In this document: positions 1,183 through 58,368 of the stretch, piece by piece | How positions within the stretch are numbered: the first letter of the stretch is position 1 | Layout: each line of letters starts with the position of its first letter | Position numbers and translations under genes: made by a program | The notes under the pieces: model-generated | Seen by the model: only the letters and a program-made list of their open reading frames with translations | The model's database searches: none | Told to the model about the DNA's origin: nothing | NCBI GenBank assembly: GCA_022828595.1 | Contig: JAKGHH010000004.1 | Coordinates: 78,582,270-78,646,269 of the forward strand | Reading direction: 5' to 3' | DNA: 64,000 nt | Origin: Nelumbo lutea | Lineage: Eukaryota > Streptophyta > Magnoliopsida > Proteales > Nelumbonaceae

Positions 1183-1343
1183 TCCTATCTTTTCGATCGA
1201 AACTACAGACGGTAATTGGGATATGGAAGGAGGGGAGGAAGGAAAAGAAAATTGAAAAACGAAAAGAAAACCCTAATCCTAGTCTATCATTTCCAGCACT
1301 TCGGCATCTGTATATTTGTTGGTAGAAACAAAAGGTTACGTCC

Positions 1344-4300
1344 ATGGATTCAAAGGCTTCTGTCCCGCTTTACGCAACAGAGGAGGCCCCATTACCAGCG
1401 GAGACATCCCAGCAACACCACCACCCACCAGTTAAGGTCTCTCTATCCCGCTCACCAGGTATCCGAGCTCCTCCTTTTTATTTTGATATAGAAAATGATG
1501 AAGATAATGTTGGTGATAAGAAAAGCAATGGTAGTAGCGTTAGCAGTCGCAGTACCGAAGGTAGTTATGAGTCCGAGGGCTTCGTGAGCGGTGAGGACGA
1601 GTTCGAAACCGCTTCAGAGAGGCCATTTACTGCAGACCCAGATGAAGAAGCTATAGAAGTGGCTGTGGAGGGGGAAGGCGCTGGCATCTCTTTCGTTAGG
1701 GGTGGCCAAGTGGAAGAGGTGACTGTCCCTTTTGTCCAATCTGCTTTGGGTTCTTCGAGTTTCTCGCCTCCGAAGACTGTGATGCCAATTGCGAAGCCAT
1801 CGAGGGAGGACGATGACGTCGAGGATGAGGGGTTGGTGAGCGAGGTGGAGGACGATGGAGTTTCGGGCTTTACTAGAGTTCCTTCTAGCGAGGAATTACA
1901 GGGGTCTGGTGGCATGGTAGAAACTCCAACTCCAAAAGTAAAGGTTTTAGGGGATGAGGGAGGAGAAGAAGATGAATCTTCTTTGGGGAGGGATTCTGCC
2001 CCTTCTGAAGGATTGACTTCGGGTTTTGTCCAATCGGGACTGGGCAGGGATGGGGTTCCTGAACCACTTGGAGTTGCTGGCAATGATTCTGAGACTATTG
2101 AAGAAGGCAACGGCACTGAAAACCCTAAACCTGAAGCTGGGGTTTTGGATTCTGCAGAGAAAGAACCTACGGGAGAAGCAATTTCAGTTTCGGATGAATT
2201 GGGTGAGGATCAGGTTCCCATCAGTACAAATTCTTGTGTTGAGGATTCAGCCGCAAGTGAACAAGATAACTTGCCAGAAAGTGCGAAGTTGAACGAGGAT
2301 GCAAACCCAGCAGGCCAAGGAAGCCCTGTACCTGAAAAGCAGGAGTTAGAAGGGACCGAATTGAAAGATATTTTGGAGGAAAATAAAAATGATGCTTTGG
2401 GTGGCAGTTACACTGTTGAAGTGCATTCTTCAATTGAAGGCGAATTTTCTGTTGATTCTAAGCAGAACTCTAAGGTAATTGCAAAAAACTCGAGTTTGGA
2501 TGGTGAAGCTGATCAATCAGCCCCTGTCATCGAAGAATCTGTAGATTCAAATTTCATTAAGGCAGATAATACGAATTCTGTCACTGGTGGAGATTTGGTT
2601 GTTGAAACCAGACAACCCGTTTTGCTAGGTTCAGAATCTGGTGTTGTTGGAGACAAAGAGGAAAATGATGCTTCTGAAGCTAAAATTGTAGAGCAACCGG
2701 CGGGTCCAGAATCTGGTGTTGTTGGAGATAAAGAGGAAAATGAGGCTTCTGAAACTGAAGTGGTGGAGCGACTGTTGGACTCAGAATCTTGTGTTGATGG
2801 ACACACAGAAGAATACAAGGCTTCTGAAACTGAAGGGGTGGAGCGACTGCTGGGTTCAGAATCTGGTGTTGTTGGAGATAATGGAGACTACAAGGCTTCT
2901 AAAACCGACAAAGTGGAACAACCAGCAGAGAAAAGTGTCAGATTGGGTACTGGATCTGATCAATCCAGTCATGTTGTTGATGAACCTATTCTTTCCAAGT
3001 TGATTGAGGCAGATACTAGTGTTGCAAAGATAGAGGAAGTCAATGCTGTTGAACATGAAGCAGCAACCAACCCTGTCCATGAGGCCAAGGAACTAGGATC
3101 ACTTGAACCAATAACCAACAAGGCTAGAGTGGTGGAAGTTGATGTTTTGGACACCGGATCTACTTCTGTTGATACTATAATGGCTGTATCTGCAGATGTC
3201 CACGAAGGGGAAAGGGATGGTGCTGGTGCCGGTGCTGATGAAAGTATTTGTCTAGATGAAGATGAAAACACTGGGATATCTGAACTTGAAAGTGAGCAAC
3301 AGACTGCTGCTTCAGGAGCTGATGCAGATGAATCCACCCTGGACTCAGCTATTAATGGAGTTGAATCAGAATCCAGTGGCAATACAGATGGCAGAGATAA
3401 GATTCAGAGTGTAGATTCTACTATTAATTCCACGGGGCCTGTTGCGGAGGAGTCCAAGCATTTAGAAAATGGCGATGCCTCCATAGCTGCTCAAGGTTAT
3501 GAATTGGAAGATGGGATCTCTAGCAAATTAAACAAACCTCAATCCATGGTACCGGTTTCCATCCTAGACCCAGAAATAAAGCAAGAAGCTGAAGTTCAAG
3601 ACCTAGAAGGAGGAGATGACGATGAAGGACCAGTTTCAGATGAAGAAGCTGAAGGTGTGATGTTTGGAAGCTCTGAAGCTGCCAAACGGATCATGGAGTT
3701 GGTGCAAGGAACAGGCACTGGTTCTCACTTTAGTTCTGAAAGCTTCCTTGATCATTCTCAGAGAATTGATGGACAGATTGCTACGGACTCAGATGAAGTG
3801 GTGGAAACTGATGAGGAGTCTGATGGGAAAGAATTATTTGATTCTGCTGCCTTGGCTGCTCTTCTGAAAGCAGCAACTAATGCAGGGTCAGATGGTGGCA
3901 GTATTACAATTACCTCATCAGACGGTTCCAGGCTTTTCTCTGTTGAGCGTCCTGCTGGTTTGGGATCCTCAATAAGGTCTCTGAAGCCTGATTCCCGACC
4001 AAATCGTCCCAGCATTTTTACTCCTTCAGGCCTCACAGCTGAGGGGGAATCGGAGGACAATTTGAGTGAAGAAGAAAAGAAGAAGCTGGAGCAGTTGCAA
4101 CTCATTAGAGTGAAATTCTTGAGGCTTGTCCAGAGGCTAGGCCATTCTCCTGAAGACTCCATTGTGTCACAGGTTCTATACCGGATGGTTCTAGCTGCAG
4201 GAAGGCGAACTGGTCAAGTATTTAATCTGGAAGCTGCCAAGACGACAGCAATGCAGATGGAAGCAGAGGGCAAAGATGATCTGATCTTCTCTTTGAACAT

Positions 4301-6224
4301 CCTAGTACTTGGAAAAACTGGAGTAGGCAAGAGTGCAACCATCAACTCAATTTTTGGTGAAAAGATGTCTGTTATTGATGCATTTGAACCTGCCACAACT
4401 ACAGTGAAGGAGATTGTCAGATCAGTAGATGGAGTTAAGATCCGGATCATTGACACTCCTGGTCTCAGACCTTCTGTGATGGAACAATCTTTTAACAGGA
4501 AAGTCCTATCATCTATAAAGAAGTTCACCAAGAAATGCCCCCCAGATATTGTCCTTTATGTAGACCGGCTAGACACCCAGACCAGAGATCTTAATGATCT
4601 GCCATTATTAAGATCAATTACTAGTTCTCTTGGCTCATCAATATGGCGCAGTGCCATTGTCACTTTGACCCATGCTGCTTCAGCACCCCCAGATGGGCCA
4701 TCTGGATCCCCCTTGAGCTATGAGGTTTTTGTTGCTCAACGTTCCCACGTTGTACAGCAGTGCATTGGGCAAGCAGTAGGTGATCTTCGTCTAATGAATC
4801 CAAGTTTGATGAATCCGGTGTCTCTTGTTGAAAACCATCCTGCATGCAGAAAGAACAGAGAAGGTCAACGAGTTCTTCCCAATGGTCAAAGTTGGAGGCC
4901 CCAGTTATTGCTCTTATGCTACTCTATGAAGATCTTATCTGAAGTGAGTTCCTTGTCGAAGCCTCAGGATCCATTTGACCAGAGGAAGCTTTTTGGCTTC
5001 CGCATCCGCTCACCGCCTCTACCCTATTTGTTGTCTTCACTGTTGCAGTCCCGTGCCCACCCAAAGCTATCTGCTGATCAGGGTGGTGAGAATGGTGATT
5101 CTGATGTTGACTTGGGGGATTTGTCTGATTCTGACCAAGAAGAAGAAGAGGATGAATATGACCAGCTCCCACCGTTCAAACCACTGAGGAAAGCTCAGGT
5201 TGCTAATCTCAGCAAGGAGCAGAGGAAGGCATATTTTGACGAGTATGATTATCGGGTAAAGCTCCTACAGAAGAAACAATGGAAAGAAGAGGTTAAAAGA
5301 ATGAAGGAGATGAAGAAAGGCAAGGCTAGTGATGATGATTATGGCTATATGGGTGAAGATGTGGATCAGGAAAATGGAAGTCCCTCAGCTGTGCCAGTTC
5401 CATTGCCTGACATGGTCCTGCCACCTTCATTTGATGGAGATAACCCAGCTTACAGGTATCGGTTCTTGGAACCAACATCACAGCTTCTAGCAAGGCCAGT
5501 TCTAGACACACATGGGTGGGACCATGATTCTGGGTATGATGGTGTAAGCCTTGAACAGAATCTTGCAATCGCTGGTCAGTTTCCAGCAGGGGTTGCTGTT
5601 CAAATCACCAAGGATAAGAAGGAATTCAACATCCATTTGGATTCTTCAGTTTCAGCCAAACATGGGGAGAACGGGTCAACTCTAGCAGGCTTTGACATCC
5701 AGACCATTGGAAAACAGCTTGCATACATCCTCAGGGGTGAGACAAAATTTAAAAATATGAAGAAGAACAAGACTACAGCTGGGATATCTGTTACTTTATT
5801 AGGTGAAAATGTGGCCACTGGACTCAAAATTGAGGATCAGATTGCAATTGGAAAACGCCTGGTTTTGGTTGGGAGCACTGGGGCAGTTCGATCTCAAGGT
5901 GATGTGGCATATGGTGCCAATTTAGAGGCCCGCTTGAGGGAGAAGGATTTTCCAATCGGTCAAGACCAGTCCACTTTGGGGCTTTCTCTGATGAAATGGA
6001 GGGGGGACCTGGCACTGGGGGCTAATCTGCAGTCTCAGTTCTCTGTTGGAAGGAACTCAAAGATGGCTGTTCGTGTAGGATTGAACAACAAGCTAAGTGG
6101 GCAGATAACAGTTAGGACAAGCACTTCAGAGCAGCTTCAGATTGCACTCATGGGTATTCTTCCAATTGCCACTGCAATCTTCAGGACCATCTGGCCTGCT
6201 AATGAGACGTACTCGGCATACTAG
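1344..6224 (+). CDS. TOC159: TOC159-type chloroplast preprotein import receptor GTPase
   Basis: This is one uninterrupted exon of 1,626 codons. The protein is a receptor of the TOC complex in the outer chloroplast envelope; it binds transit peptides of precursors and hydrolyses GTP. The sequence shows the three domains of the family. Residues 1 to about 870 are an acidic, Ser/Glu/Asp-rich A domain with four 25-residue repeats (430-529). A GTPase domain follows, with P-loop GKTGVGKS near residue 990, DTPG near 1037, THAA near 1109 and ENH near 1163. From about 1270 there is an acidic hinge, then QLPPFKPLRKAQ and a C-terminal membrane-anchor M domain. Length is close to Arabidopsis Toc159 (about 1,500), and the long A domain separates it from Toc132/120 and Toc90. 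The start is the first ATG of the long frame and begins MDSKAS. No frameshift or stop is seen. The family assignment is secure; orthology among plant Toc159 paralogues is inferred from the long A domain. Confidence 0.95.
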   Translation: MDSKASVPLYATEEAPLPAETSQQHHHPPVKVSLSRSPGIRAPPFYFDIENDEDNVGDKKSNGSSVSSRSTEGSYESEGFVSGEDEFETASERPFTADPDEEAIEVAVEGEGAGISFVRGGQVEEVTVPFVQSALGSSSFSPPKTVMPIAKPSREDDDVEDEGLVSEVEDDGVSGFTRVPSSEELQGSGGMVETPTPKVKVLGDEGGEEDESSLGRDSAPSEGLTSGFVQSGLGRDGVPEPLGVAGNDSETIEEGNGTENPKPEAGVLDSAEKEPTGEAISVSDELGEDQVPISTNSCVEDSAASEQDNLPESAKLNEDANPAGQGSPVPEKQELEGTELKDILEENKNDALGGSYTVEVHSSIEGEFSVDSKQNSKVIAKNSSLDGEADQSAPVIEESVDSNFIKADNTNSVTGGDLVVETRQPVLLGSESGVVGDKEENDASEAKIVEQPAGPESGVVGDKEENEASETEVVERLLDSESCVDGHTEEYKASETEGVERLLGSESGVVGDNGDYKASKTDKVEQPAEKSVRLGTGSDQSSHVVDEPILSKLIEADTSVAKIEEVNAVEHEAATNPVHEAKELGSLEPITNKARVVEVDVLDTGSTSVDTIMAVSADVHEGERDGAGAGADESICLDEDENTGISELESEQQTAASGADADESTLDSAINGVESESSGNTDGRDKIQSVDSTINSTGPVAEESKHLENGDASIAAQGYELEDGISSKLNKPQSMVPVSILDPEIKQEAEVQDLEGGDDDEGPVSDEEAEGVMFGSSEAAKRIMELVQGTGTGSHFSSESFLDHSQRIDGQIATDSDEVVETDEESDGKELFDSAALAALLKAATNAGSDGGSITITSSDGSRLFSVERPAGLGSSIRSLKPDSRPNRPSIFTPSGLTAEGESEDNLSEEEKKKLEQLQLIRVKFLRLVQRLGHSPEDSIVSQVLYRMVLAAGRRTGQVFNLEAAKTTAMQMEAEGKDDLIFSLNILVLGKTGVGKSATINSIFGEKMSVIDAFEPATTTVKEIVRSVDGVKIRIIDTPGLRPSVMEQSFNRKVLSSIKKFTKKCPPDIVLYVDRLDTQTRDLNDLPLLRSITSSLGSSIWRSAIVTLTHAASAPPDGPSGSPLSYEVFVAQRSHVVQQCIGQAVGDLRLMNPSLMNPVSLVENHPACRKNREGQRVLPNGQSWRPQLLLLCYSMKILSEVSSLSKPQDPFDQRKLFGFRIRSPPLPYLLSSLLQSRAHPKLSADQGGENGDSDVDLGDLSDSDQEEEEDEYDQLPPFKPLRKAQVANLSKEQRKAYFDEYDYRVKLLQKKQWKEEVKRMKEMKKGKASDDDYGYMGEDVDQENGSPSAVPVPLPDMVLPPSFDGDNPAYRYRFLEPTSQLLARPVLDTHGWDHDSGYDGVSLEQNLAIAGQFPAGVAVQITKDKKEFNIHLDSSVSAKHGENGSTLAGFDIQTIGKQLAYILRGETKFKNMKKNKTTAGISVTLLGENVATGLKIEDQIAIGKRLVLVGSTGAVRSQGDVAYGANLEARLREKDFPIGQDQSTLGLSLMKWRGDLALGANLQSQFSVGRNSKMAVRVGLNNKLSGQITVRTSTSEQLQIALMGILPIATAIFRTIWPANETYSAY
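2631..2930 (+). repeat. Four 75-bp in-frame repeats in the TOC159 acidic domain
   Basis: The units start at 2631, 2706, 2781 and 2856, an exact 75-bp (25-codon) period. Each begins with Ser/Pro-Glu-Ser, continues with a Val-Gly-Asp or related core, and has Ala-Ser-Glu/Lys-Thr in the middle and Val-Glu-Gln/Arg near the end. The period is a multiple of three, so copy number can change without breaking the frame. The units have diverged, so the array is not very recent. Confidence 0.9.
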
Positions 6225-10700: not shown

Positions 10701-13700
10701 CACTACACATTTAGTCAGTGATTTTCCTAATACCCAGATTTGGGAGTTCAATTCCCCATCAAAGGTAACCTTCATGGTTTGGACTAAGGGTGTTCATGGT
10801 CCGCTTTGGAGAAGATCTCAGACTAAACCAGTAAATTATGGTCTGAAGAGTTCTCAGACCAAACCAAACCATTCTAGTATTTGGTCCAGTTTCTAATATG
10901 GTTTGGGCCATTCTATTGGGCTTAACCCAATTAGAAATCCCAAAATAGCATATATTCATGCATAAATAACAAAAAAAATTCAAATACCAAATTGACTTGT
11001 TAAGAAATACCACCTATTAAAGTCAATTAAATTGCATTCACAATTTATCAAACATAAACAGGTCCTTGGGCATCAAACTACAAGTTAAAAATTGAAACAA
11101 ACAACAACAATGTATGAAATACTTATATAGTTTAGAGTTATGTAATATGTTTAAATGTTAAAAGAATACTTATGTTGTGTATATATAACTAACTATATTA
11201 TAAATGCTTAAATGTATGTAATATATATATATATATATATTAATAATTCGGTTTATGGTTTGGTTTCTGAAATTCAGAACCAAACCAAACAAGAAAATTA
11301 TGGCCCGAGAATTCTCAGACCAAACCAGACCATTTTCTAAGGCCAGACTAGATCAAACCACCAATTTCAGTTTGGTTTGGTTCAATTTGGCAGTCTAGAC
11401 CATATAATGAACACCCCTAGTTTGGACTGTCACACCTAGGAAATCTGACAAAGGATAAGCTAGTGGCTATTCTTGCATTGCAAATTCTGCACCTCCATTA
11501 GGGGTATGGTATGGATACTTTCAAAGCAAAATGGTGTTTCCAATGAATAGTGAAATAGTTTCTGCTTGTCTGGGATATTTGGCGATTATGAATAAAATAG
11601 AGAAGCAGCTTGGGAACATATAATCCCAATGGCTTCTGTATGCACTCCTTGCACAAGAATATTTGGCAACAGACTGCACAATAAAAGGAAGCAGTAAAAG
11701 GTTTCATGGCAGGAAATACTCTTAGCTAGCAACTGAAAGAGTTCAGGGAAAAATTCCATCAGCTTATTATGGTTTTGGATTATTAAGTAGGAACATGGAC
11801 ACTAGCCTATACTTCTAACACTTGTTATACTATGAGTTTTCTACTATATATTCATCTATAATACCATCTTGTTGCACATGAGCTCAAATGTGGAAGGGGT
11901 GGAATGGCCAAGACTGGATGATGAGAAGGCAAAGTGGTTGAAAAGGAATTTCAAGGAAAAAGAGATAAAGCAAGCTGTCTTTCTAATGGATAGATCCAAG
12001 GCTCTGGACCCAGACGGCTTTTTATCAAGATTATTAGGAGGTGCTAAAAGAAGATTTAGTTGAAGTTTTTAAGGAATTTGCAGATAACAACATAATAAGC
12101 CCTAGAGTCAATGTCACATTCTTGGCCTTAACCCCTAAGAAGATTGATGCCAACCACCCAAAAGATTTTAGGCCTATTAGTCTAGTGACAAGCATCTATA
12201 AAATTCTAGCTAAAGTGCTCTCATTGAGGATCAAAGAAATTCTCCCATCCATCACCAACCAAACTCAAGGGGCTTTCATTTAAGGGGAACAAATAACAGA
12301 TCAGATTCTAATGTGAATGAATGTGTGGAGGAAATGAAAAGGTTTAGGCAAAGAGGTTTCATTTGTAATTTGGATCTTGAAAAGACTTATGACTGGGTGG
12401 ATTGGGAATTTTTATCAAAGGTGATGAGGAATTGTAGGTTTGGGGACAAGTGGTGTAGTTGGATACTTGCGTATCTTAGTACTTGTCACTACTCTATATT
12501 GGTCAATGGTGTGGTGAAGGATTTTTTTCCAGCTTGCAGGGGTGTCAGACAAGGGGACCCACTCTTTCCTTTCATATTTACTTTAGTAGCCAATGTGATT
12601 AGTAGAATCATTACTAAGGCCGATAGAGGAAAGTAGGGAGAAACCAGATCCCAATCACCCATCTCCAGTTTGCAGATGACTTGATGATTTTTGTGAAGGA
12701 GGTATTAGCGAGAAGGTAACAAACATAAATGAACTAATCAAAGGTTTTGAAAGAATCTCTAATCTGAAAATAAATTTGGAAAAGAATTGAAAGCGGGTAT
12801 TAATTTGGAAGATGGGGAGACTAAGGCTATTGCAGAGTGTCTTGAGTGTTCCATCTCTTCTTAGCCTATGTCGTACTTAGGGCTTCCATTAGGGGTAAAT
12901 CCTAGGGAAAGCAGATTTTGGACTCCAGTGCTAGAAAAAGTTTGAGAAGAGATTAGCTTTGTGGAAGAAGATTTAATCTCTTTGGGATGTAGCATCACCT
13001 TAATAAGAGCTACGTTGGCTAATTTACCCTCTTACTTTCTGTCTATCTTTAGGATACCACCTAAGGAAGCTAGGAAGCTGGAGAAGTTGATGAGAGATTT
13101 CCTATGGGAGCTAGGAGAAGGGAAAAAAAAGGACCATTTGGTTAAATGGGAAATTGTATGTTTAAGTAAAGAAGAGGGGGGTTTGGGAATAGGGAGGGTG
13201 GTTGAAAAAATCAAGCTCTATTGGGGAAATGGCTGTGGTGATGGCCATTGGAAAGCGAGAGACTTTGACATGAAGTGGTGGGAAGTATTCATGGGAGCTC
13301 AAAGAATGGGTGGGATGTTGGTGTATTAAGGCAGGCTAACTTGGCAGCACCCTGCAAGGCCATTCACAACACCCTTCCTCAATTTCTCAGGTTTGTTAGG
13401 TATGAAGTTTGTTCTAGTAACATTATTCCATTTTGGGAGGACATCTAGGTATAAAACACCCCACTAAAGGACCATTTTCCTTTGTTATTTTTTGTTTCGC
13501 TATATAAAAAAGAGGTGATCTCAAAATTTGTCTCATCTTCAGGAACACCTATGGCTCCTAATTGGGTTTTTAGGTTTTGTAGGGGATTAAGGGATGATGA
13601 AATTGAATCCTTCTCTAACTTGCTTTCTCGTCTTAATCAGGTTCGCTTGGATCCCTCCAAGCCAAACAAAAGGGTGTGGGCTCCTGTTATGGTCACACCA

Positions 13701-16700
13701 ACCGGCAGCGCAATCATAGGCAGCAGCACGCACAGCAGGCCGTGCAGTAGCAGGCACCGCCTGGCAGCACGCAGCACGCAGCACGCACCGCCCGACAACG
13801 CGCAGCACACAACGCCTGGCAGCGCCGCACAACGGCACACACCGCTCGACAGCGCGCAACACGCACCTCACGGCAGCAGCACGCATTGCACGGCAGCTGC
13901 AGTAGGGCGGGGCCTACATGACAGCTCATCAGGGTGGGTCCACACTCTACTCTCCAACTCGCCGCCAGCTTCACCATCCCTTATCCCTTATCTTATCTTA
14001 TCTTATCTTATCTTATCTTATCTTAAGTAAGAGTTGTGTTACTATTAGGAGTAGGTAATTAGGAGTTTGAGTTTAAGTTGGATTACCTTAGCCTAGCCGA
14101 ATCCAACAAGGAATTTCCTTCTATAATCTCCTATTTAAGGAGCTACAAGTTGAAATAAAGTATTCAGTTTTCCAGTCAAGAGAAGAGTAAGGAGAGTTCG
14201 GGTGGTCTCTTGGACAAATCACCCATTCAGTTTCCGCAATAGGGTCTGCACGCAAGGGAAAGCAGGGCTTTCTCCCCGTGGACCGACCCGTGACAATATC
14301 CTACGCGCGGGACCATAACATTTTGGTATTAGAGCCAAACGTCACGGGCAATATGGAGCAACTATCATTCAAGATCAACGAACTGGAACATAGGCTAGCA
14401 GAAACCAGCATGGAGGTTCGTGAAGTCAAGGAAGATGTCCGGGAGATGCGACGCCTGCTGGAAGCATTCCTCTCCAACAAAGAAAGGAGTTCTAAGGGAA
14501 TCGCCAACACAAACAGTCGCTGTCCGGACTGGGCGGAGGCATCCAGTGAACAACACCGGGAGGGCTATACCATTGCGAGCAACTCTTTTGTAATCAGCGC
14601 ACGGGGGGATGAAACTGTAAAGTCTCCTCCTTTGGCCGGGGACAATGTCATGAACATTATATTGGTACCTGCAGAATGCGCTCCTTGGTCGAGGACAGGT
14701 GGACTTAGCGATGTTGCTGGGACTTTACCGAAGGCCTTGGCTCGGCGTGAACATAGAGTTATGGTTGTGGCACCACAGTATGGTAACTATGCAGAAGTCC
14801 AAGAAACAGGAGTGCGCAAGTGATATAAGGTGGATGGGCAGGATATGGAGGCTGCTCTTGAGGTTCTCTTCTGTAAGTATACCCGACGCGTTCTTGTGAT
14901 CCACAACATAGCACACCGGGGTCGTGGTCCAGTACGCGATTTTCGTTATGTGGACCTTCCACAAAACTACTTCAAACTACATGACCCAGGAGGTTGGGAA
15001 CACTTCAAGGTCCTTGCAGTTGGCCTGAAAGCAGCAGATCGTGTAGTCACCGTAAGCCATGGTTACGCTTGGGGGCTGAAAACTAAAGGAGGTTGGGGTT
15101 TGCATCAAATAATAAATGAGTGTGATTGGAAGCTGAAGGGCATTGTGAATGGGATTGATGCAAAAGAATGGAACCGGCTTTATGCACTGAGCTACGGGAC
15201 AGTCCCTATTGTTCATGCTGTTGGTGGACTGAGAGATAGTGTGCAGCCGTTTGATCCATTGGAAGAGTTCCAAGCCCCGTATCCGGAATTCGAGCTTGAG
15301 GACAAGCTCGTTGTCCAGGAGGGGTGTGATGTTATGGTCACACCAACCGGCAACGCACTGCGGCACAGTCATAGGCAGCAGCACGCACCGCCTGGCAGCA
15401 CGCAGCACACACTGCTCGACAGCGCGCAGCACGCACCGCCTGGCAGCACGCAACACGCGCCACCCGACAGCACGCAACACGCACCGGCCGGCAGCGCGCA
15501 GCACGCATCGCACGGCAGCAGCACCGCGAGATGCGCGCACCGTCCGGCAGCTGCAGTAGGGCAGGGCCCACATGACAGCTCATCAGGGTGGGTCCACACT
15601 CTGCTCTCCAACTCGCCGCCAACTTCACCATCCCTTATCCCTTATCTTATCTTATCCTTATCTTATCTTATCTTAAGTAAGAGTTGTGTTATTATTAGGA
15701 GTAGGTAATTAGGAGTTTGAGTTTAAGTTGGATTACCTTAGCCTAGCCGAATCCAACAAGGAATTTCCTTTTGTAAATATCTTATTTAAGGAGCTATGAG
15801 TTGAAATAAAGCATTCAGTTTTCCCAGTCAAGAGAAGAGTAAGGAGAGTTCTGGTGGTCTCTTGGACAAATCACCCATTCAGTTTCCGCAATAGGGTCTG
15901 CACGCAAGGGAAAGCAGGGCTTTCTCCCCGTGGACCGACCCGTGACGAGATCCTACGCGCGGGACCATAACAGCTCCTAGGCCCAAAGAGACCTTTACTT
16001 GTGCTTCTTACTTCAAGTCCATCTTTACATCTTCTGCCCAACAACTTTTTCCGTCAAAGGAAATTTGGTGCAGGCCAGTTCCCCCCAAAGATTATGGCTT
16101 TTTGTTGGGAAATGTACTATGGGAAAGTAAACGCTCTAGATAAGTTACAAAAGAGAAGACCTTTCCACTGTATTACTCCCAACCGATGTACCTTTTGTAT
16201 AGCTCATGGGGAGGATAGTTACCATCTACTAATGTCTTGTCCATTCTCTGCAGACTTATGGGCTTGGTTACTTTCATTGTTTGGGAGTAGTTGGAGCTTT
16301 CTAGTAGAAGTTTGCATAATCATTTTGACCATTCTACCTTCTCTTGGCCTACAAAAGAGGGAAAATTATGTGGAGATGTGCTTGAGCAGCCCTGATTTGG
16401 ACATTATGGGAAGAAAAGAATGCTAGAATATTTCAAGACAAGGAAAGGAGCAGCCAGGAACTGAAAGACTGTGTGTTGAATAGGGCAATACTTTGGCTGA
16501 AGACTTTGGAAATTTTTCATCAATTCTCATATAATGACTTCTGGAGAAACTGGTTAGCAGTAGTGAGGTGGTCTTCCTTTAAGAACAAAATAGTTACAAG
16601 GTGGTCTCCTCCGTCTGAAGGTTCACTGAAGCAAAACTTTGATGGAAGTAGTTAGGGTAACCTAGGGTTATCTGGAATTGGGATTCGGAGATTCTGTTAG

Positions 16701-28700: not shown

Positions 28701-31700
28701 CTATTGTTATATGCCGAAGCGGGCAGGACATCGTAGGGCTTATATTCAAGTTGTCTATGACTTAGGCATTAGAAGTACCTTGCCTATGTCGAAGAGGCGA
28801 CTATGACTTATATGCCCATGCCGAAGAGGCGACTGGGTCTTATGTGCCCATGTCGAAGAGGTGACTGAGACTTATATGGTGACGAGTCCGTCAACTCTAT
28901 ACTTTGGCCCTTAGGCCCTGGGGGCGACTTATTGTCCATCCTCCTTGATCTTGCCCATGCCGGGAAGGCGACTGGGGCTTATATGATGTCGAGGTCTTTT
29001 ATTAGCTCGGCACTTTTAGTCTTTAAACTTCTGGGAGTGACTTACAGTCCGCTCTCCATTTAGACGATCATAGGTAGTATCGCCTTGGGTTGCTGACGTT
29101 CCACGCCCGAGGCACTTGTTTTCCTTCTACGGTTTCGAGCTCGTACGTACCCTCCCCGAGCACCCGATTTACTCGATAGGATCCTTCCCAATTCGGTCTG
29201 AGCTTACCAACACCGGGCTCAGGCACCATGACTTTGCGAAGAACCAGGTCTCCAACACGGAAGTTCCGCTTCTTGACCTTGGCATTATAGTACCAAGCCA
29301 CTCTCTGCTGGTAGGCCGCGGTCCGGATGTATGCGAGGTCCCGTACCTCTTTTACTAGGTCGAGGTTGGTGCGTAGCTCATCACCGTTTCTCTTCGTCGT
29401 ATGCCTCCATGCGTAGCGTAGGCACCTCAATCTCGGCTGGGATTACTGCCTCCGTGCCGTAGGTGAGGTTAAAGGGGGTTTCTCCCGTGGCAGTCTTCAC
29501 AGTGGTTCGATAAGCCCATAGTACACTGGGCAGCTCGTCTACCCATAGTCCTTTAGCTCGAGCTAAGCGTGCTTACAGTCCATGGAGGATGGCCCTGTTC
29601 ATGACTTCCGCTTGACCATTTGCTTGAGGGTGTGCCACCGAGGTGAAATTCTGTTGTATCTCCATCTGGTTGCACCAGTTCCGAAACTTGATGTCCTCGA
29701 ACTGCTTGCCATTGTCAGAGATAAGCACTCGAGGTAGCCCGAAGTGGCATACTATGCTCCTCCAAAAGAAGTTTTGCACGCTTCGTGCTGTGATCATCAC
29801 AAGAGGTTCGGCCTCTACCCACTTTGTGAAATAGTCCATTGCTATCACTAAGAATCTCCTCTGTCCTGTCGCTGGCGGGAACGGTCCAAGGATGTCGATT
29901 CCCCACTATGCGAAGGGCCATGGGTTAGTGAGATACTTCAAGTAAGCAGCGGGCTGGTGGTGGACGTTGGCGTGCCTTTGACACTTGTCGCATCTTTTGA
30001 CGATCTCAAGCGCATCTGCCTTCATTGTTGGCTAGTAGTAACCCTGTCGTAGCGCTTTCTGGGCAAGAGCCTTGCCTCCCAAGTGTCCGCCACACAGACC
30101 TTCATGAATGTCGCGGAGAACAAGCTCAGCTTTTGAGGGTCGCAAGCAGTGCAAGTAGGGGAGTGTGTAGGATCTTCGGTACAGCCGTCTGTCTATTATG
30201 ACATACCTGGCTACCTATCGCTCTACCCTTCTAGCCGCGTTGCGATCTGCAGGGAGGGTCCCGTGAAGCAGGTAGCTCGTGAGTGGATCAATCCAGCTCG
30301 GCTCTGCTTGTACAACAGGAGCAACCTCTTCTGCCCCCCGGAGAATGCTAGGTCGAGGCAAGTTCTCTATGTACACGGTCCTCATGGTGTTGTCGCTTGT
30401 GCTGGCTAACCGGGACAAGGCATCGGCCTCAGGGTTCTCGGATCTCGGGATCTGCTTGATGAAGTAAGACTGGACGGGTTGATTTGAATAAATTTTTTGA
30501 TTTGAGAAGGTTGTTGATTCACTTGTAGGCCCATTGTTCATTTAAATAGGGGAAAAAACACCTGAATTAAAATAGATAATGTCTATTTGAATAGGGAAAA
30601 TTTTGATTTTCTTTTATTAGGTCGGGCTTCGGGCTTGGGCTCAGGCTTTTTATCAGGGTCGGGCTCGGGCCCAAGTTCTAGGCCCGTTGGTCGGGCCGGG
30701 CTCGAGCTCGGGCCTATTATTTTTCTGTTAATGAACACTAAAAGCCCGGCCTGAGCCCGGCCCGGCCCAACCCATGAACAGGCCTAGTGACCAAGGCTGG
30801 CTCGCGAGCTTCATAATCACCAGTAACCTGGTTGACCACGAGTTGGGAGTCACTACATATAACGAGGTGCTTGGCTCTTACTTCGTTTGCTAGAGCAAGT
30901 CCGGCTATCAATGCTTCGTAATCCGCCTCGTTATTGGAAGCGATGAACTCGAACTGAAGCGCATACTCCAGTTTCACCCCGCTTGGCCCGTACAAAATGA
31001 TACCAACACCATTACCTTGCTGATTTGACGAGCTGTCCACATGGAGGATCCAGGGCTCCTCATCCCAGGTTGGCGTTGCTCTGACCGGTGGAGGTGTCGC
31101 ACTGGTTGAAGCTTCCCCTCTGTGCTCGGGCTCAATCAATTCATGGACCGCAGTGCCGAAAGTACATTCCGCGACAAAGTCGGCTAAGGCTTGGGCCTTG
31201 ATAGCTATTCGAGGCTCGTATTGGATGTCGTATTCGCTGAGTTCAATAGCCCACTTCGTCAATCTACCGGAGACTTTGGGCTTGAGCAAGACTTGCCTCA
31301 GAGGTCTGTTGGTGAGGATGATGACAGTATGGGCTTGGAAGTACGGTCGAAGCTTTCGAGCTGCGGTGACTAGCGCATACGCCAGCTTTTCGATCTCTGG
31401 ATACCTTGTTTTTGCATCCTGCAAAACTTTACTAACATAGTAGATGAGTCATTGAACCCGATCTACTTCTTTTATTAGTACTGAGCTTACTACCTCGTCA
31501 CTCGCGGAGAGGTACAGCTTCAAAATATCTCCCTCCTCGGGTCGGGTTAAAACAAGGATACTGGTTAGGTACTTTTTGAGCTCGTCGAAAGCAAGTTGGC
31601 ACTCTTTGGTCCACTCAAAGTTCTTACTCTTTTTTATCGCCTTGAAAAAAGGCAAGCAGCGATTTGTCGATTTGGACATGAAGCGACTCAGAGCGGCTAT

Positions 31701-34700
31701 GCGATCGTTCAACCTCTAAACCTCCTTCAATTTACGGGGCGATCTCATATCTAGGATGGCCTTGATTTTGTCAGGGTTGGCTTCGATGCCACATCGGTTA
31801 ACAATGTAACCTAGGAATTTACCTGAGGTGACACCGAAGACACATTTATTAGGGTTTAACTTCATGTTGTATTTGCGCAAAATTTAAAAAACACAATGCA
31901 AATCTTATATTAAATTATTTGAAAGCTGAGTCTTGACAACCATGTCGTCTACATAGCATTCTACTTTTTTGCCAATCAGTGGCTCAAAGAGTCAGTTTAC
32001 GAGTCTTTGGAATGTTGCCCCGGCATTTTTCAGTCCAAAAGGCATGACCTTGTAACAGTACAGGTCTAGCTCGGTTATGAAGGCTGTTTTTTCTTCATCA
32101 GCAAGGTCCATCCTGATCTGGTTGTAGCCCGAGTATGCATCTAGAAAGCTCAGCAACTCGTGCCCTGAGGTCACATCCACCAAACAGTCAATCTTGGGAA
32201 GTGGTAAGCAATCCTTTAGGCAAGCTCGATTCAGGTTAGTATAGTCGATGCACATGCACCATTTACCGTAGGCTTTTTTTACTAGAACGAGGTTAGCCAC
32301 CCAACTCGAGTAATGGACCTCCCTGATGAAATCAGCTACGAAAAGCTTCCCGACTTCCTCATCGACTACTCTCCAGCGCTCCAGGGCTAAGTTGCGTTTC
32401 TTCTGTCTAATGGGCCTAACTACAGGATCAATGTTCAACTTGTGAGTTATTATTTTAGGATCTATGCCGGGCATTCTCTGCCGCGGACCATGCAAACACA
32501 TTTAAATTTTCAAGTAAGAAACTTACCAGCTGAGAACGCAAAGGCTCCTCAATCGATGCGCCGATTTGGAGAGTCCTAACTAGATCTTCTGTCGAAACAG
32601 GTATAAGGACCGTCTCTTCTATCGGTGAAGCTCGCTCCTTAGTGTACTTCACAGGTCGCTCTAGCTCGAGGTCATCTGCTACCTTGGCTTTCCCTTTGAG
32701 GGCGGCGACATAGCATTTGTGAGACTCGAGCTGGTCGCCTCGTGCTACCCCTACTCCGAAGTCCGTAAGGAACTTCATGGCCAAACAATAGGTTGACACC
32801 ACTACGCGAAGAGCGTGGGTGATTGGCCGACCTATAATGGCGTTGTACGGGGAGGGAGTCGCGACCACGAGAAAAGTGTGGTCGAACCTCGCAATGCTAG
32901 GCCACGTACCGACCTCCACAGGTACTAAAACTAGTCCCAGGGGCCTGACTTCCTCTCCGCTGAAGCCTACCAGAGGAATGTTCGTGGGCTTGATCTCGCT
33001 TTCTGGGAGCTGCAACTTGTCGAACGCGTCCTTGAACAGTATGTCTGTCGAGCTTCTTGAATCGACCAGGACGCGCTTCATTTCGAAGTCGTTGATTCTT
33101 ATTTTTATGACGAGCGTGTCATCATGGGGGTACTGGATCCCGCACGCGTCATCTTCGGTGAAGAAGAGGGGCTCTTCTAACCTTGGCCGCATCGGAGGAT
33201 TCTGATCTTCTCTTTCTAACTCATGAGCCGATGTCTTCGCCGCGGCTGATGTGCAGCCCGCGACAATTGACCCGTCGGTGATCATATGGATTATTCCTCG
33301 AACTGGCCTTTCTTCAGGCAACTGTCTCTATGGCTACTCACTCTGCCTGTTGCTGGATTCGGGAGCATCTCTCCCTTGCTCCCCCTGCCAATCTGTTTGT
33401 TTTTTATTTTCTTTTAATACAAAATTTTTGAGGTATCCGCAACGGATGAGTTCTTCGATCTCATTGCGGAGGTTTTTACAATTCTCGGTGCTATGATCAT
33501 GGTCCCTGTGAAAGTGACAATATACATTTCTATTTGTAGTATTTGGATCCCCTCTCATCCGAGGTGGCCACTTCACATAGGAGGCGTCCTTGATCGCCAT
33601 AAGAATTTCGCCTTGCTTTGCATTCAAGGGCGTGTAGTTTGTCCTTTCAACTAGAGGAGTTCGAAAAGGCTGGTTCATCCTTCTTCCGCTTATTATCCCC
33701 GTTGGTTGAGGTTTCACCTTCTCTTTTCCTCTTTTCTGGTGGATTCTCGCTTTTTTTGTTCATCTCTTCTTCTGTTCCGATGAACTGGTCAGCGAGCTTG
33801 AGAAACTCAGTGGCATCTTTAGGCTTGTTGGCAACCACGTGCCACTTGAATTCTTTGTGGGTGCTACCTCTTTTTGCGGCTGTGAGTCTCATGGCAGGAT
33901 CTAGGTCGGGGATCTGCAAGCACGCATCGTTGAAACGCTTAATATAACTCCGGATTGACTCTCCCTCCCTTTGGACTATGCTGAGGAGGCTTTCCTGGGA
34001 CCTCGGGCATCTTTTGCTAGTGATGAAGTGCGAGGTGAAGACCTGCACGAACTGCGCCCAACTTTTAATTGTCCCAGGCGCGAGGTTTTTGTACCATGTA
34101 CGAGCCACTCCCTTAAAGGTTGTGGAGAAGGCAACGCACATGCAAGGTTCATCAACCCCAGCTAGGTGCATCAAACTCGTCGTACTTGTCCAGGGGAGGT
34201 ACCTTGAAGTCTTTGGGCATCGGGACGGCCAAGAGCTCGGGGGATAAGGGAGACGGCACAAAAAGGAGTGGAGTGGTCTTCACGGTTACCGACCTCGCCT
34301 CTTCTTTGCCTTTAGGCTATTCGGGCTGACTTTGAACTGCAGCTTGGTGAGCCTTACGATGCCGCTTCTGCTGCTTCTTTACTGGCTCTGCATTAATGCT
34401 GCTGGCTTCGGTGTTGTCAGCACTGTTCTTGCAGGGAGCTGCTCAAAGTGCTGGCGACGGCTGTTGTGGACTGAGGGACCTTGCCTAGAGTTCGCGGCCA
34501 AAATCCCGAACCGGTTTTCTACAAGCGGAACTTCAAACTGTGAAGGCCGAGGTGAAGCGGCTCTGGTGGGCTGGGTGTCTCCCGACCTATTCACTTGTTG
34601 TGAGGTGGGAGGAGTAACCTATCTCTCCCTCCTGCCACGGGACGAGACCTGGCTCCCGAGAGGGTTCTGGATCTGGGAGGTCTCTCCCTGGCGAGGAGGG

Positions 34701-37700: not shown

Positions 37701-40700
37701 TCTCCAAAAATGTGGTAAAAGCTCTTTCAATGCCTAAATGGACAGATGCAATGAAAGAATAGATGGATGCCTTACATAAAAATGGTACATGGGAATTAAT
37801 GGACCTTCTTGTAGGAAAGGAATTGGTAGGGTGCAAGTGGGTTTTTATAGTAAAGCATAGGGCTCATGGTACAGTAGAAAGGTACAAAGCTTGGTTGGTG
37901 GTGAAAGGGTTTACTCAAGTGTATGGAGTAGACTATGTAGAGACATTTGCTCCAGTTGCTAAGATGAATTCTATCAGAGTTCTTTTTTCTCTTGCTACTA
38001 ACCTTGATTGGGATCTCCACCAGTTAGATATTAAAAATGCCTTCTTGAATGGTGATCTTGAAGAAGAGGTGCACATGGTGCAACTTCTTGGTTTCTATGC
38101 TCAAGACCAAGAAAAAAAAAGTGTGTAGATTAAAGAAGTCCTTGTACGAACTAAAACAATCACTAAGAGCTTGGTTCAGGAAATTTCATCTAGTTGTACA
38201 GCAGATTGGTTATAAACAGTGTCAGACTAATCATACATTCTTTGTGAAAAAATGAGAGGGAAAATTTGTAGCTTTGATATTGTATGTTGACGACATAGTG
38301 ATCACAGGCGACTGGAAGGTGAAAATTCAGAGATTAAAGAAGTTCCTAGCCACTCAATTTGAGGTGAAGGATCTAGGTTCCTTGAAGTATTTTCTTGGAA
38401 TTGAAGTGGCCTGTTCAAAAATGGGGATCTTCATTTCTCAAAGAAAATACATCCTAGATTTATTACAAGATGCAGGAAAACTTGGAGTCAAGCTGGTTGA
38501 CTCCCCCATTGATCCAAACCACAAATTGGGTGATTGTCAAGGTGAGACTATCAAAGATGTAAAACAATTCCAAAGACTTGTGGGCAGACTATTATATTTG
38601 TCTATGGCACAGCCGAACATTGCTTATGTTGTGAATGTTCTTAGCCAATTCATGCATGTTCCTAAGACTACACACTTAAAGGCGGCCAATAGAACCCTCA
38701 GGTACCTAAAGAAGTTCCCAAGGGCTGGTTTACTTTACCAAAAGAATGGCCACTTGAAGGTTGAGGTGTATATAGATGATGACTGGGCCAAACGAGTTGA
38801 TGACAGAAAGTCTATTAGTGAGTATTGTACCTTTGTGGGAGGAAACCTAGTCATGTGGAGAAGCAAAACACAGAATGTTGTGGCGAGGTCTAGTGCTAAA
38901 GTTGAGTATAGAGCAATGCCCCATGGAGTGGCTGAAGTTCTGGATAAAGAACTTGTTGAATGAGTTGGGATTTCTTGTAGATGGTCCCATATCCTTGTAT
39001 TATGATAACAAAGCTGCTATCAACATTGCTGCCAACCCAGTACTTCATGATAAAACTAAACATATTGAAGTTGACAAGCATTTTATTAGGGAAAAATTAT
39101 AAATGAGGAAGTGTGCACTCCATATGTCAGTTCCACAGATCAACTTGCAGACATCTTTACCAAGGGGTTACATCATTCGCGACACAATGATTTATGTGAC
39201 AAGTTGGGCATGATTGATATCTCTGTCCCAACTTGAGGGGGAGTGTTGAAATCAGTTTGTTTCACCTAGTTTTTTATTTATTTTTCTGTTCTTTAGTGCC
39301 GTAGGGGCACTCTTGTAATTCCTCTTATCTTTATTATTAGTTGGGTTGCCCTAATATAAAAGCTAATAGCTGGCACTACCAGCCATATGTTTTGAATCCA
39401 ATTTTTCTTCTCTCTTCTCTCTTCTTCCTTCCTCCTCTCTTCCTCTCCTTCTCTGATATCTCTAGCCTGGAAAACAGAATTCAATCGAGTTGAGCTAATA
39501 CATACCTAATCAGAGATTTCCAAGAAAACTAGAGAAGAAAAGTTGGTTAGAATTCACATTTTTGGCAATGCCTACCCAAATTCAGAGATAAATTATGGCC
39601 TATGATATTATATCTTTCAGAACTATATCATGCATCTTTTTTCTGTTTAATTATTGAATGTTAACAATTATACAATTCAATGTAAAGGAAAATGTGTAAC
39701 CACATTTTATAGTATGATGATATTTTTATAAGCAATTAAAAGTATGATATATTTTCTTGTAAATGTGAAATAAATAAATATACTCTGGATAAATATATCT
39801 AGAAAAATAAAAAAAGAAAAACTTATATAGTAGTTAGGAATGGGCTAACCATCTAGAAGCTTATGACTTATCATCATTCCATAAAGAGCTAGATTGACAC
39901 TTAAGATGCTGAATTGCTGATAATGATAAAAAGAAATATAGAAGAACAAACACCTATGAACAACACAAATCATTCAAATCATCCAATACATTAGTATACA
40001 GAAATTACTATATATTCAAATAGGAAAAGTCTCCTTCTATCTACATGGGAAGTTTTTTGGATCAGTCTATCTCATGGGAAGTTTTACCTAAATTTTCTAT
40101 CATTAGAAGAAAGGCACTTTTTCTAGGTCATATGTTTAAAAATTAAAACTTAAAGGTTTAATGGATAACAAAGTTTGAGAAGTAATACTAGTCACAGAGG
40201 TAGGTAGCGATGGTAATTGGGTATGTTGGCCGTGGGTTGAGCTCCAACCTACCCATTTAACACCAATCTAGATCCAAATGGTATAACTCAACCCACACCC
40301 ACTCTGCACCAACCCAACCCCCACCTATTCAAATCCCATGCTTTGGAAACAATCTCTTTTACCCTTCTTGTCTTGGCCATTTAGAAAGAGAAGGAGGATC
40401 TGAACATAGACAGAGCACAAAGAAGAACTGGAAAATATAAAGCACACACACACACACACAAAATCAATAACCATGATCTTTGTTTTATACTTTATACAAA
40501 AGGAACTTAATTGGTATCCATGACCAAACCCAAATCCACCCATTTATACTCAAACCAAATAGATTTCCCATGCATGTCTGACAGCATCAACCCACTTATA
40601 GTTAGGTAGGTTGAGCAGGTTGGATCAAATAGCCACTCCTAGCGGTAGAGAGAGGTTCAAAACATGGTATGGTAAATCCAACAACATGCATGCATACATA

Positions 40701-57900: not shown

Positions 57901-58368
57901 CTACTGCGCCACGGTAGCTGGTTCTGCCTGATTCCCCCCTTCGCTGAATACTTTGGCGATTCTCTCGGTTGGGACCAACGGTATATACGCAGACACGGTG
58001 TACCCCCTCTCCGCCGAATAACATACGGCCTGATTGTACTTCTCCGAGCAGTACGCTGCCGTCGGTAACACAACCTGGGCAATCTGAGGAAACAGTGGAA
58101 GCTGGTTCAGCGATTTCCATGTCGATACAGCGTAGCGTTCGGCCACCGGCTCGTATTTTGCGTATAGATCCTTGGCGGTGGGCTCGCACTTGGTGTACAC
58201 CGATTTCGCTATTCCGGTGGCAGTCTCCACCACGCCAGAGCGCTGCACCTCCGAAGCCACGGCTCGAGCCACCTCCGGAGCTTTCTGAGCAGCCGAGAAG
58301 GCTTCGCTTGCTGCCCCTTTCACGACCGATGGCAAGTGGCGTTCAAGCTCGCTAACAGAGTCGTCCAC
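57901..58368 (-). CDS. REF/SRPP gene exon 3
   Basis: This is 155 codons and TAG. It starts [13 protein letters not shown] after acceptor TTGCAG and ends EPATVAQ. Confidence 0.92.

Follow-up and report, generated by a model that had tools for sequence, protein, structure and literature searches.

Spliced starch synthase II sequence carried by a non-autonomous LTR retrotransposon family in the lotus Nelumbo lutea

Introduction

How does starch synthase coding sequence without introns come to lie between the long terminal repeats (LTRs) of a retrotransposon, and is it still an enzyme there? The question is raised by one locus in a 64,000-nucleotide stretch of the Nelumbo lutea genome (the window). 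Gene capture by plant LTR elements has mostly been viewed as a series of single, finished events. In this one lotus genome, the donor gene is found together with a fuller version of the capture, with second captures, with trimmed derivatives and with a relative that bears pol. Because donor, intermediates and derivatives coexist, the order of events and the mechanism (junction overlap, preferred gag point) are directly testable.

Structure of the window element

The locus at 13685-15972 was a non-autonomous LTR retrotransposon composed of a gag leader, intronless pieces of starch synthase II (SSII) and a Gypsy polyprotein tail (Table 1). The features on which the original prediction rested, namely paired LTRs, a 5-bp target-site duplication (TSD), primer-binding-site (PBS)-like and polypurine-tract (PPT)-like sites and the lack of pol enzymes, were all borne out, and paired TG...CA LTRs, PBS, PPT and 5-bp TSDs were found across the family as well. 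We take the PBS-like site to be of the initiator tRNA-Met type. The interior consisted of leader, SSII and tail only, without pol domains, and the family has nonetheless multiplied. Over 416 aligned nucleotides in the 3' part of the LTRs, the pair differed by 12 transitions and 3 transversions (K2P 0.037). The element sits within a LINE remnant (zf-RVT).

The interior had been described as a single frame with one stop codon, and two open stretches (14191-14823 and 14824-15708) were indeed split by a single TGA. The predicted C-terminal end of a Gypsy polyprotein was also present. The gag identity of the leader was upheld by the pol-bearing relative described below, but its register was disturbed by two small, mutually cancelling indels at ~14580-14606 (+2 and +1 compared with copy L021).

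Table 1. Features of the window element and its captured sequence.
Feature	Position	Strand	Remarks
5' target-site duplication, GCTCC	13680..13684	.	
5' LTR, TGTTATGGTC...GACCATAACA	13685..14320	+	636 nt; TG...CA; CAGCACGCAC-type internal repeats; TCTTA repeats
Primer-binding-site-like TGGTATTAGAGCC	14324..14336	+	1 change vs TGGTATCAGAGCC, the form in many other copies
gag N-terminal leader	14353..14606	+	shorter than the gag leader of L041, L042 and L049
Captured SSII coding sequence, source gene A	14607..15260	+	intronless; internal deletions
Gene A intron 1 position, crossed without intron	14698..14699	+	
Gene A intron 2 position, crossed without intron	14763..14764	+	
In-frame stop, TGA	14821..14823	+	
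Gene A intron 3 position, crossed without intron	14841..14842	+	
Deletion point, 135 nt missing vs L021	14850..14851	+	in 11/38 other aligned interiors: L009-L016, L041a, L041b, L042
Family-wide rearrangement, exon 5 end to second copy of GTTCTCTTCTGTAAG	14863..14877	+	4 residues replace 43 SSII residues
Gene A intron 6 position, crossed without intron	14919..14920	+	
Deletion point, 399 nt missing vs L021	15171..15175	+	likewise L017, L018, L020, L044, L045, L047
Gypsy polyprotein C-terminal tail	15261..15329	+	CCATT common to both sides of the SSII/tail join
Polypurine-tract-like AGGAGGGGTGTGA	15317..15329	+	
3' LTR	15330..15972	+	643 nt; TG...CA
3' target-site duplication, GCTCC	15973..15977	.	

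Donor gene of the captured SSII sequence

The predicted starch synthase identity was confirmed. The two pieces in the window matched the starch synthase catalytic domain PF08323 (E 1.8e-14 for 14353-14820 and 4.3e-14 for 14824-15330) and solved starch synthases (E 5.4e-15 and 4.8e-23), and were 90-97% identical to a host gene on C4, gene A (L050). Gene A contains six GT-AG introns within the part read, and its spliced frame is open for 658 aa up to its stop. The window copy spans the positions of introns 1, 2, 3 and 6 cleanly; as had been proposed, the fragments are intronless, with no parental intron at any of the four positions crossed.

All 39 aligned copies were closer to gene A (5-23% divergence, median 8.6%) than to a second host gene, gene B; the window copy differed from gene A by 6.4% (655 nt) and from gene B by 24.5% (503 nt). 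In the phylogenetic tree, the 39 copies and a fuller chimera, L049, formed a clade beside gene A (UFBoot 96), and the family without L049 formed another (UFBoot 100). This single clade argues for a single SSII capture, which the comparison of copies places in an ancestor rather than in the window copy.

The suggestion that deletion points might coincide with exon borders of the SSII gene did not hold. The 135- and 399-nt deletions lie off the borders and arose within the family; the sole edge touching an exon end (exon 5) was on the left side of the 43-residue replacement that the whole family shares. Exon borders were thus rejected as a general deletion rule.

A fuller chimera and sister elements with other host genes

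L049, on C3, is an older relative that carries a gag leader, THOC5 (PF09766, E 9.4e-54) and SSII (PF08323, E 5.5e-60) between LTRs of 468 and 528 nt (K2P 0.063; TSD CACTG). It spans all six gene A intron positions without introns, so that exons are joined as in mRNA, as in Bs1-type transduction. Its SSII part starts and stops within coding sequence and abuts THOC5 and the tail, with no 3' UTR or A-tract between; in the window copy, too, the SSII borders lie inside coding sequence and are joined directly to element parts. The intron-bearing gene A and this fuller chimera together strongly support the predicted capture of a host mRNA by a Gypsy-type element.

Sister elements contained THOC5 alone, THOC5 with cellulose synthase (13 places) or, at one place, an auxin response factor (ARF), and one element lineage therefore holds four host genes. 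THOC5 with cellulose synthase is carried by L052 (PF09766, 4.5e-54; PF03552, 4.3e-169) and L056, and the ARF element is L055 (PF06507, 5.3e-34; PF02362, 9.6e-21). Three gag junctions fell within ~17 nt, and two host genes meet gag at an identical codon. Leader-like sequence was met at 1094 candidate places, 150 of them scored. At C8:1.64 Mb, a gene-like match to the ARF was present in seven pieces. The donor of the cellulose synthase is uncertain, since the closest gene-like match was only 67-90% alike; the host THOC5 gene was not located, and the unbroken THOC5 frame suggests that this sequence was spliced before capture. When the L052 frame was compared with the protein database, the best 120 of 3234 matches were cellulose synthases, none covering >61% of it, and no model of a THOC5-cellulose synthase fusion was among them.

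Multiplication and a pol-bearing relative

Further copies were abundant. The same gag-SSII chimera was present in 39 other regions read, and 76 further places showed the match pattern of the family. The family thus occupies at least the 40 regions read, and domain matches put its probable extent at more than a hundred places. The window copy is a decayed, internally deleted family member, neither unique nor the site of capture. Both outer ends were found in 35 of 37 tabulated copies (L014, L037, L043 and L044 are absent from the table; L022 and L047 lack the 3' end), and of these 35, 25 had an exact 5-bp TSD and six a TSD with one mismatch, while L027 and L028 had no clean TSD at their assumed ends. 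K2P was computed for 33 rows (L013, L022, L046 and L047 excluded). The interior alignment of 39 rows comprised 36 tabulated copies (including the window, without L046) plus L014, L043 and L044; the filler locus L048 (101 nt) was excluded. TRIM elements are defined by very short LTRs and a short total length. The SSII copies do not fit this definition, with LTRs of 580-925 nt and totals of 2.3-3.1 kb (L013 excepted from both).

In L053, a leader similar to that of the window copy continues into a gag-protease-RT frame, which identifies the window leader as gag. Retrotrans_gag (PF03732) and RVP_2 (PF08284) exceeded their cut-offs in L053; RVT_1 reached 20.1 bits against a cut-off of 29.6 in a queried frame that ends early in RT, and RNaseH was recognized by reading only. 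The RT part is interrupted by stops. Its LTR and leader were 70% alike to those of the window copy and up to 80% to those of L049. We saw no autonomous element whose LTRs were near-identical, and L053 is a relative only. The L055 tail matched PF24626 above the cut-off and Chromo (PF00385) at 20.2 bits against a cut-off of 25.1; a chromodomain behind integrase marks the chromovirus branch of Ty3/Gypsy. In Ty3/Gypsy elements, integrase follows gag, protease, RT and RNaseH; the family is assigned to this type as the best explanation, the integrase core lying outside the sequence read in L053 and L055. The predicted mobilisation in trans is supported by the exact TSDs and by L053 with its similar LTR and leader.

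The captured SSII sequence is a passenger

With a neutral expectation derived from LTR pairs, in which CpG and CHG transitions were 6-7 times more frequent, no purifying selection was detected on the SSII part among the 39 copies in any of four sets of pairs: omega was 1.18 (0.96-1.49) for all pairs, 1.24 for the farthest quarter, 1.10 for the nearest tenth and 1.03 for nearest neighbours. Constraint suggested by plain Nei-Gojobori estimates (median 0.81; leader 0.41) vanished for SSII under this expectation, and a maintained captured enzyme was dropped. For the leader, omega was 0.78 (0.59-1.02), 0.68 (0.49-0.97), 0.74 (0.55-1.01) and 0.84 (0.64-1.11) for the same sets; since one set of the four showed weak constraint, the leader may be more than a passenger.

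A 43-residue stretch of the catalytic domain was found in none of the 39 interiors and was recovered in L049 as a positive control; 36 of the 41 element regions read are among the 120 places covered in that analysis. Stops occurred in 33 of the 39 interiors. Divergence at the neutral rate, the stops and the absence of the catalytic stretch showed that SSII in this family is a passenger, not a constrained enzyme with its GT5 catalytic domain intact. Open frames of 300-580 aa contain many of the genomic matches, but we did not accept them as a sign of function.

Origin of the family and alternative explanations

We consider it very likely that the window element belongs to a Ty3/Gypsy-type, non-autonomous lotus family that captured host mRNA by template switching, gained genes serially, moved in trans and carries SSII as a passenger. 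Reverse transcription would have occurred inside the particles of an autonomous relative; there the polymerase would have left the element's RNA for a spliced host mRNA and then returned, which would place host coding sequence between gag leader and polyprotein tail. The junction overlaps are short (CCATT at SSII/tail, ~2 nt at leader/SSII), which leaves template switching favoured but short of proof; an mRNA template is favoured because the SSII junctions read carry spliced coding sequence only, without non-coding flanks. THOC5 was presumably taken first. THOC5-bearing elements would then have gained cellulose synthase (L052, L056) or SSII, the latter probably added to an element already bearing THOC5, as L049 and the THOC5-only elements suggest; a separate capture at the same gag codon would have yielded the ARF element. 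An SSII form lacking THOC5 and part of SSII was then amplified, presumably in trans, because LTRs, primer site, gag 5' end and polypurine tract were kept but no pol is encoded. A broader proposal, which we hold tentatively and at somewhat less than even confidence, is that the lineage catches genes serially: its gag 5' end, as far as NQRTDDRDK, would be a preferred strand-switch point for unrelated spliced mRNAs (THOC5, ARF, and SSII directly or via THOC5), with trans mobilisation and further genes added downstream.

A processed SSII pseudogene made by a LINE could instead have been inserted as DNA into a Gypsy element and carried along. LINEs do lie nearby, the window element being inside the remnant of one, and a LINE-type retrocopy route in dicots has been proposed in passages of PMC4838847. 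We regard this origin as unlikely: a LINE-made retrocopy should have a poly-A tail and a TSD of its own, the SSII borders of L049 and the window copy are instead direct joins within coding sequence, with no A-tract in L049, and the same slot is occupied by other host genes, two at an identical gag codon. That the copies form a genuine expanded starch synthase gene family is scarcely credible. Database names speak for it (the 120 proteins listed include 15 called granule-bound starch synthase 2-like and 9 called starch synthase domain protein, of Nelumbo), as do the long open frames, but a script found the gag leader in 14 of 26 inspected Nelumbo models and inspection by eye showed a further four beginning within it, the SSII omega is ~1, the 43 residues are missing throughout, and the copies are flanked by LTRs and TSDs. 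L041, a tandem LTR-interior-LTR-interior-LTR array, and five domain-match places within 13 kb at C3:89.26-89.27 Mb would fit duplication, segmental or tandem, of a small number of insertions. As the general route of multiplication such duplication is just as hard to credit, given that, in the comparison of element ends, the exact TSDs differ in sequence and their carriers lie on all of C1-C8.

Implications and comparison with known systems

The database models come from N. nucifera, and among the Nelumbo gene models named 'granule-bound starch synthase 2-like' a set are these elements. Such mis-named models inflate the number of starch genes counted in a starch crop. A qPCR primer pair published for lotus 'GBSS' fitted gene A best and also fitted 14 of 40 element regions checked, with <=3 mismatches in each primer and products 247-307 bp long. 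The intronless SSII copies, probably more than a hundred, may also be a source of small RNAs targeting the host SSII gene.

No starch synthase capture by an LTR element was found in the open PMC literature. The kind of event is known from Bs1-type transduction; its serial repetition with amplification is unusual. In the passages of the cited sources used here, Bs1 of maize is an LTR element in which a new chimeric gene has been assembled from parts of three host genes (PMC13317346), carrying exons only (PMC4717578) and low in copy number (PMC2774510). The lotus elements likewise join host exons as in mRNA, but at least 40 copies of the SSII family were read and more than a hundred probably exist, and the four genes are distributed among sister families of a single lineage whose intermediates persist in the genome. 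Host genes or fragments within LTR elements, as in lotus, number 672 in rice, 1343 in sorghum and 424 in maize in the part consulted of PMC3726574. L049, L052 and L056 each hold two host genes, whereas the portion used of a maize survey (PMC2774510) records no LTR element that combines fragments from two or more standard nuclear genes, and a review excerpt (PMC7264820) puts the extra ORFs attributed to transduction at one or a few copies. The soybean TRIM GmaRetroS15, as far as PMC4717578 was available, is also non-autonomous with intronless exons, LTR and TSD, whereas the lotus family has LTRs of several hundred nucleotides, retains gag and polyprotein ends and is not miniature. For Rider/SUN in tomato and Veju in wheat, the standing models in the excerpt of PMC13317346 are read-through transduction and abnormal template switching; unlike these, the lotus SSII junctions read contain spliced coding sequence only, without non-coding flanks.

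Structure of the window copy

The LTR element predicted at 13685–15972 was borne out, with paired LTRs and GCTCC on both flanks. Inside, a gag-like leader (ATG at 14353), starch synthase pieces and the end of a Gypsy polyprotein follow one another in one frame, which, as the original prediction held, is broken by a single stop, a TGA at 14821–14823; on either side of this stop the Pfam starch synthase domain was matched (E = 1.8e-14 and 4.3e-14). Beyond the losses common to its family of starch synthase II (SSII)-carrying non-autonomous elements, this copy lacks a further 135 and 399 nt.

Features of the window copy, in window coordinates
Feature	Position	Description
5' LTR	13685–14320	starts TGTTATGGTC, ends GACCATAACA; pairs with the 3' LTR along its length
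3' LTR	15330–15972	starts TGTTATGGTC, ends GACCATAACA
Target-site duplication GCTCC		both sides of the window copy
TGGTATTAGAGCC	14324–14336	behind the 5' LTR
AGGAGGGGTGTGA	15317–15329	in front of the 3' LTR

Both flanks are a LINE remnant (zf-RVT, E = 3.7e-10 at 15971–16426), whose reverse transcriptase ORF is split by the element into 12214–13329 and 15971–16655. Elsewhere, the window holds a 1632-aa ORF (1326–6224) similar to chloroplast import receptors of the Toc159 type, among them those of Tetracentron and Cornus, and, from reading of translations, broken Gypsy-like and Copia-like polyprotein pieces (29068–34279, minus strand; 37763–38963, plus strand). An ORF at 57901–58404 (minus strand) appears to encode a REF/SRPP-type stress protein.

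Copies in the genome

The further copies for which a DNA search had been proposed were found. In the 843.66-Mb genome, with 40 of 2116 first-look candidates scored, we counted the window copy and at least 39 other regions, with LTR and interior matches in 39 of 39. Both outer ends were present in 35 of the 37 copies tabulated, where the tandem form L041 was entered as two. The 5-bp target duplication was exact in 25 of the 35 two-ended copies and had one mismatch in 6; neither form was seen in L027, L028 and both halves of L041, the outer flanks of which (CAGAT vs CATAT) differ in one base. LTR divergence (K2P, 3' 420 nt, 33 copies) had a median of 0.060 (range 0.019–0.135), and was 0.037 for the window copy. 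L041 (C4:86.59 Mb) is an SSII element arranged LTR-interior-LTR-interior-LTR, and the L027 interior carries 557 extra nt in its SSII part, perhaps a nested insertion.

The starch synthase domain had at least 221 genome matches (150 of 255 candidates scored), and the 150 matches listed correspond to at least 120 places on chromosomes C1–C8. Among the 120 listed places, 36 were element regions that we read, 76 were unread with family-like match borders (one of which, C1:8944825, is possibly a host gene), and 8 had other borders. Five such places lie inside 13 kb at C3:89257294–89270337, possibly as nested or tandem copies.

Donor gene and single capture

In a fuller chimera, the LTR element L049 (C3:84.01 Mb; LTRs of 468 and 528 nt, target duplication CACTG, K2P 0.063), the gag leader is followed by THOC5 (PF09766, E = 9.4e-54), then by the N-terminal part of SSII and its catalytic domain (PF08323, E = 5.5e-60), and last by the polyprotein tail, in a frame interrupted by stops. 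The window family lacks both THOC5 and the SSII N-terminal part; a 43-residue SSII stretch was found in L049 and in 0 of 39 family interiors. With an SSII stretch that the family lacks as the probe, three strong SSII-type places were obtained. Two intron-bearing SSII genes were read, gene A (C4:15.90–15.91 Mb) and gene B (C3:16.24 Mb). Gene A has six introns with GT-AG ends in the part fetched and, when spliced, an open frame of 658 aa up to the stop; L049 crosses 6 of 6 of these intron positions and is 3.8% apart from gene A over 1322 nt. The window copy differs from gene A by 6.4% (655 nt) and from gene B by 24.5% (503 nt). All 39 aligned copies were closer to gene A than to gene B, at distances from gene A of 5.3–23.1% (median 8.6%). 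In the tree, the copies and L049 formed one clade adjoining gene A (UFBoot 96; family, UFBoot 100), which indicates that SSII was captured once.

Sister captures and junctions

With the THOC5 of L049 as query, 60 of 60 candidates were scored, giving 58 matches; long unbroken or almost unbroken matches lay at 41 places, and three others were excluded (one 47% match, one short piece and gene A). A gag-leader match stood directly in front of THOC5 in at least 35 of the 41 (150 of 1094 leader candidates scored). L054 is leader-THOC5-tail. In both L052 and L056, leader and THOC5 are followed by cellulose synthase (PF03552, E = 4.3e-169 and 2.5e-213, respectively); L052 has these as a single open frame of 640 aa counted from the fetched start. 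With 111 of 151 candidates scored, cellulose synthase adjoined THOC5 in at least 13 places, unbroken across the full query in at least 7, and the nearest gene-like cellulose synthase (C3:57.3 Mb) matched in four pieces (67–90% identity). L055, leader-auxin response factor (ARF)-integrase end-tail, was the only full-length match to the ARF query among the matches listed (106 of 201 candidates scored); at C8:1.64 Mb, a gene-like sequence matched in seven pieces (81–97% identity). The sister sample is five leader-bearing places (L052–L056) plus L049; since the five are few and were picked for long open frames, they give no capture rate. At C2:82675726–82680929, four leader matches with identical scores lie ~1.65 kb apart, likely a tandem array.

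At C1:87.1 Mb, L053 with L057 shows the same type of LTR, primer site and leader, the leader running on into gag core, protease and a reverse transcriptase part with stops. Over LTR and leader, L053 resembles L049 (80% alike) more closely than the window copy (70%), and we regard it as a relative and a candidate helper only.

The gag/THOC5 joins (L049, L052, L054, L056) and the gag/ARF join (L055) fall at one codon, ...DRDK, and the gag join of the SSII family lies about 16–17 nt upstream of it. The SSII/tail join shares a common CCATT, and the THOC5/SSII join of L049 lies within a similar AGAA(A)GGAGG stretch. These junctions fit strand switching during reverse transcription. We only infer it, because the overlaps are short and the family's gag/SSII join may come from later loss of THOC5.

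Selection and function

With LTR pairs supplying the neutral expectation, omega of the SSII part was 1.18 (0.96–1.49) for all pairs, 1.03 for nearest neighbours and 1.24 for the farthest quarter, and 33 of 39 aligned copies were interrupted by one or more stops when read in the ruler frame. This makes the SSII part a passenger. Leader omega was 0.78 (0.59–1.02) for all pairs and 0.68 (0.49–0.97) for the farthest quarter, so that weak constraint may act on it. Small RNAs acting in trans on gene A are a possible, speculative effect.

Database names and qPCR primers

In a protein database search with 306 aa of open frame from copy L018 as query, Nelumbo proteins ranked first, and among the matches listed, all 15 covering at least 82% of the query were from Nelumbo. 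Nelumbo names among the 120 listed included 'granule-bound starch synthase 2-like' (15) and 'starch synthase catalytic domain-containing' (9). In 14 of 26 inspected Nelumbo proteins a script found the gag leader, and, judged by eye, another four (P0005, P0010, P0022, P0029) begin within it; P0036 is a fragment of a regular SSII protein whose N-terminus is of the transit type. The lotus 'GBSS' qPCR primer pair given in PMC3694149 matches gene A most closely (0 and 1 mismatch; product of 307 bp), and also fits 14 of 40 element regions with up to 3 mismatches per primer (products of 247–307 bp).

Comparison with known cases

The openly accessible PMC literature was covered for two subjects, LTR elements that captured SSII and captured genes in LTR elements of Nelumbo, and no report of either was found there. 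The closest precedents known are Bs1, the captures in maize, rice and sorghum, and TRIM captures.
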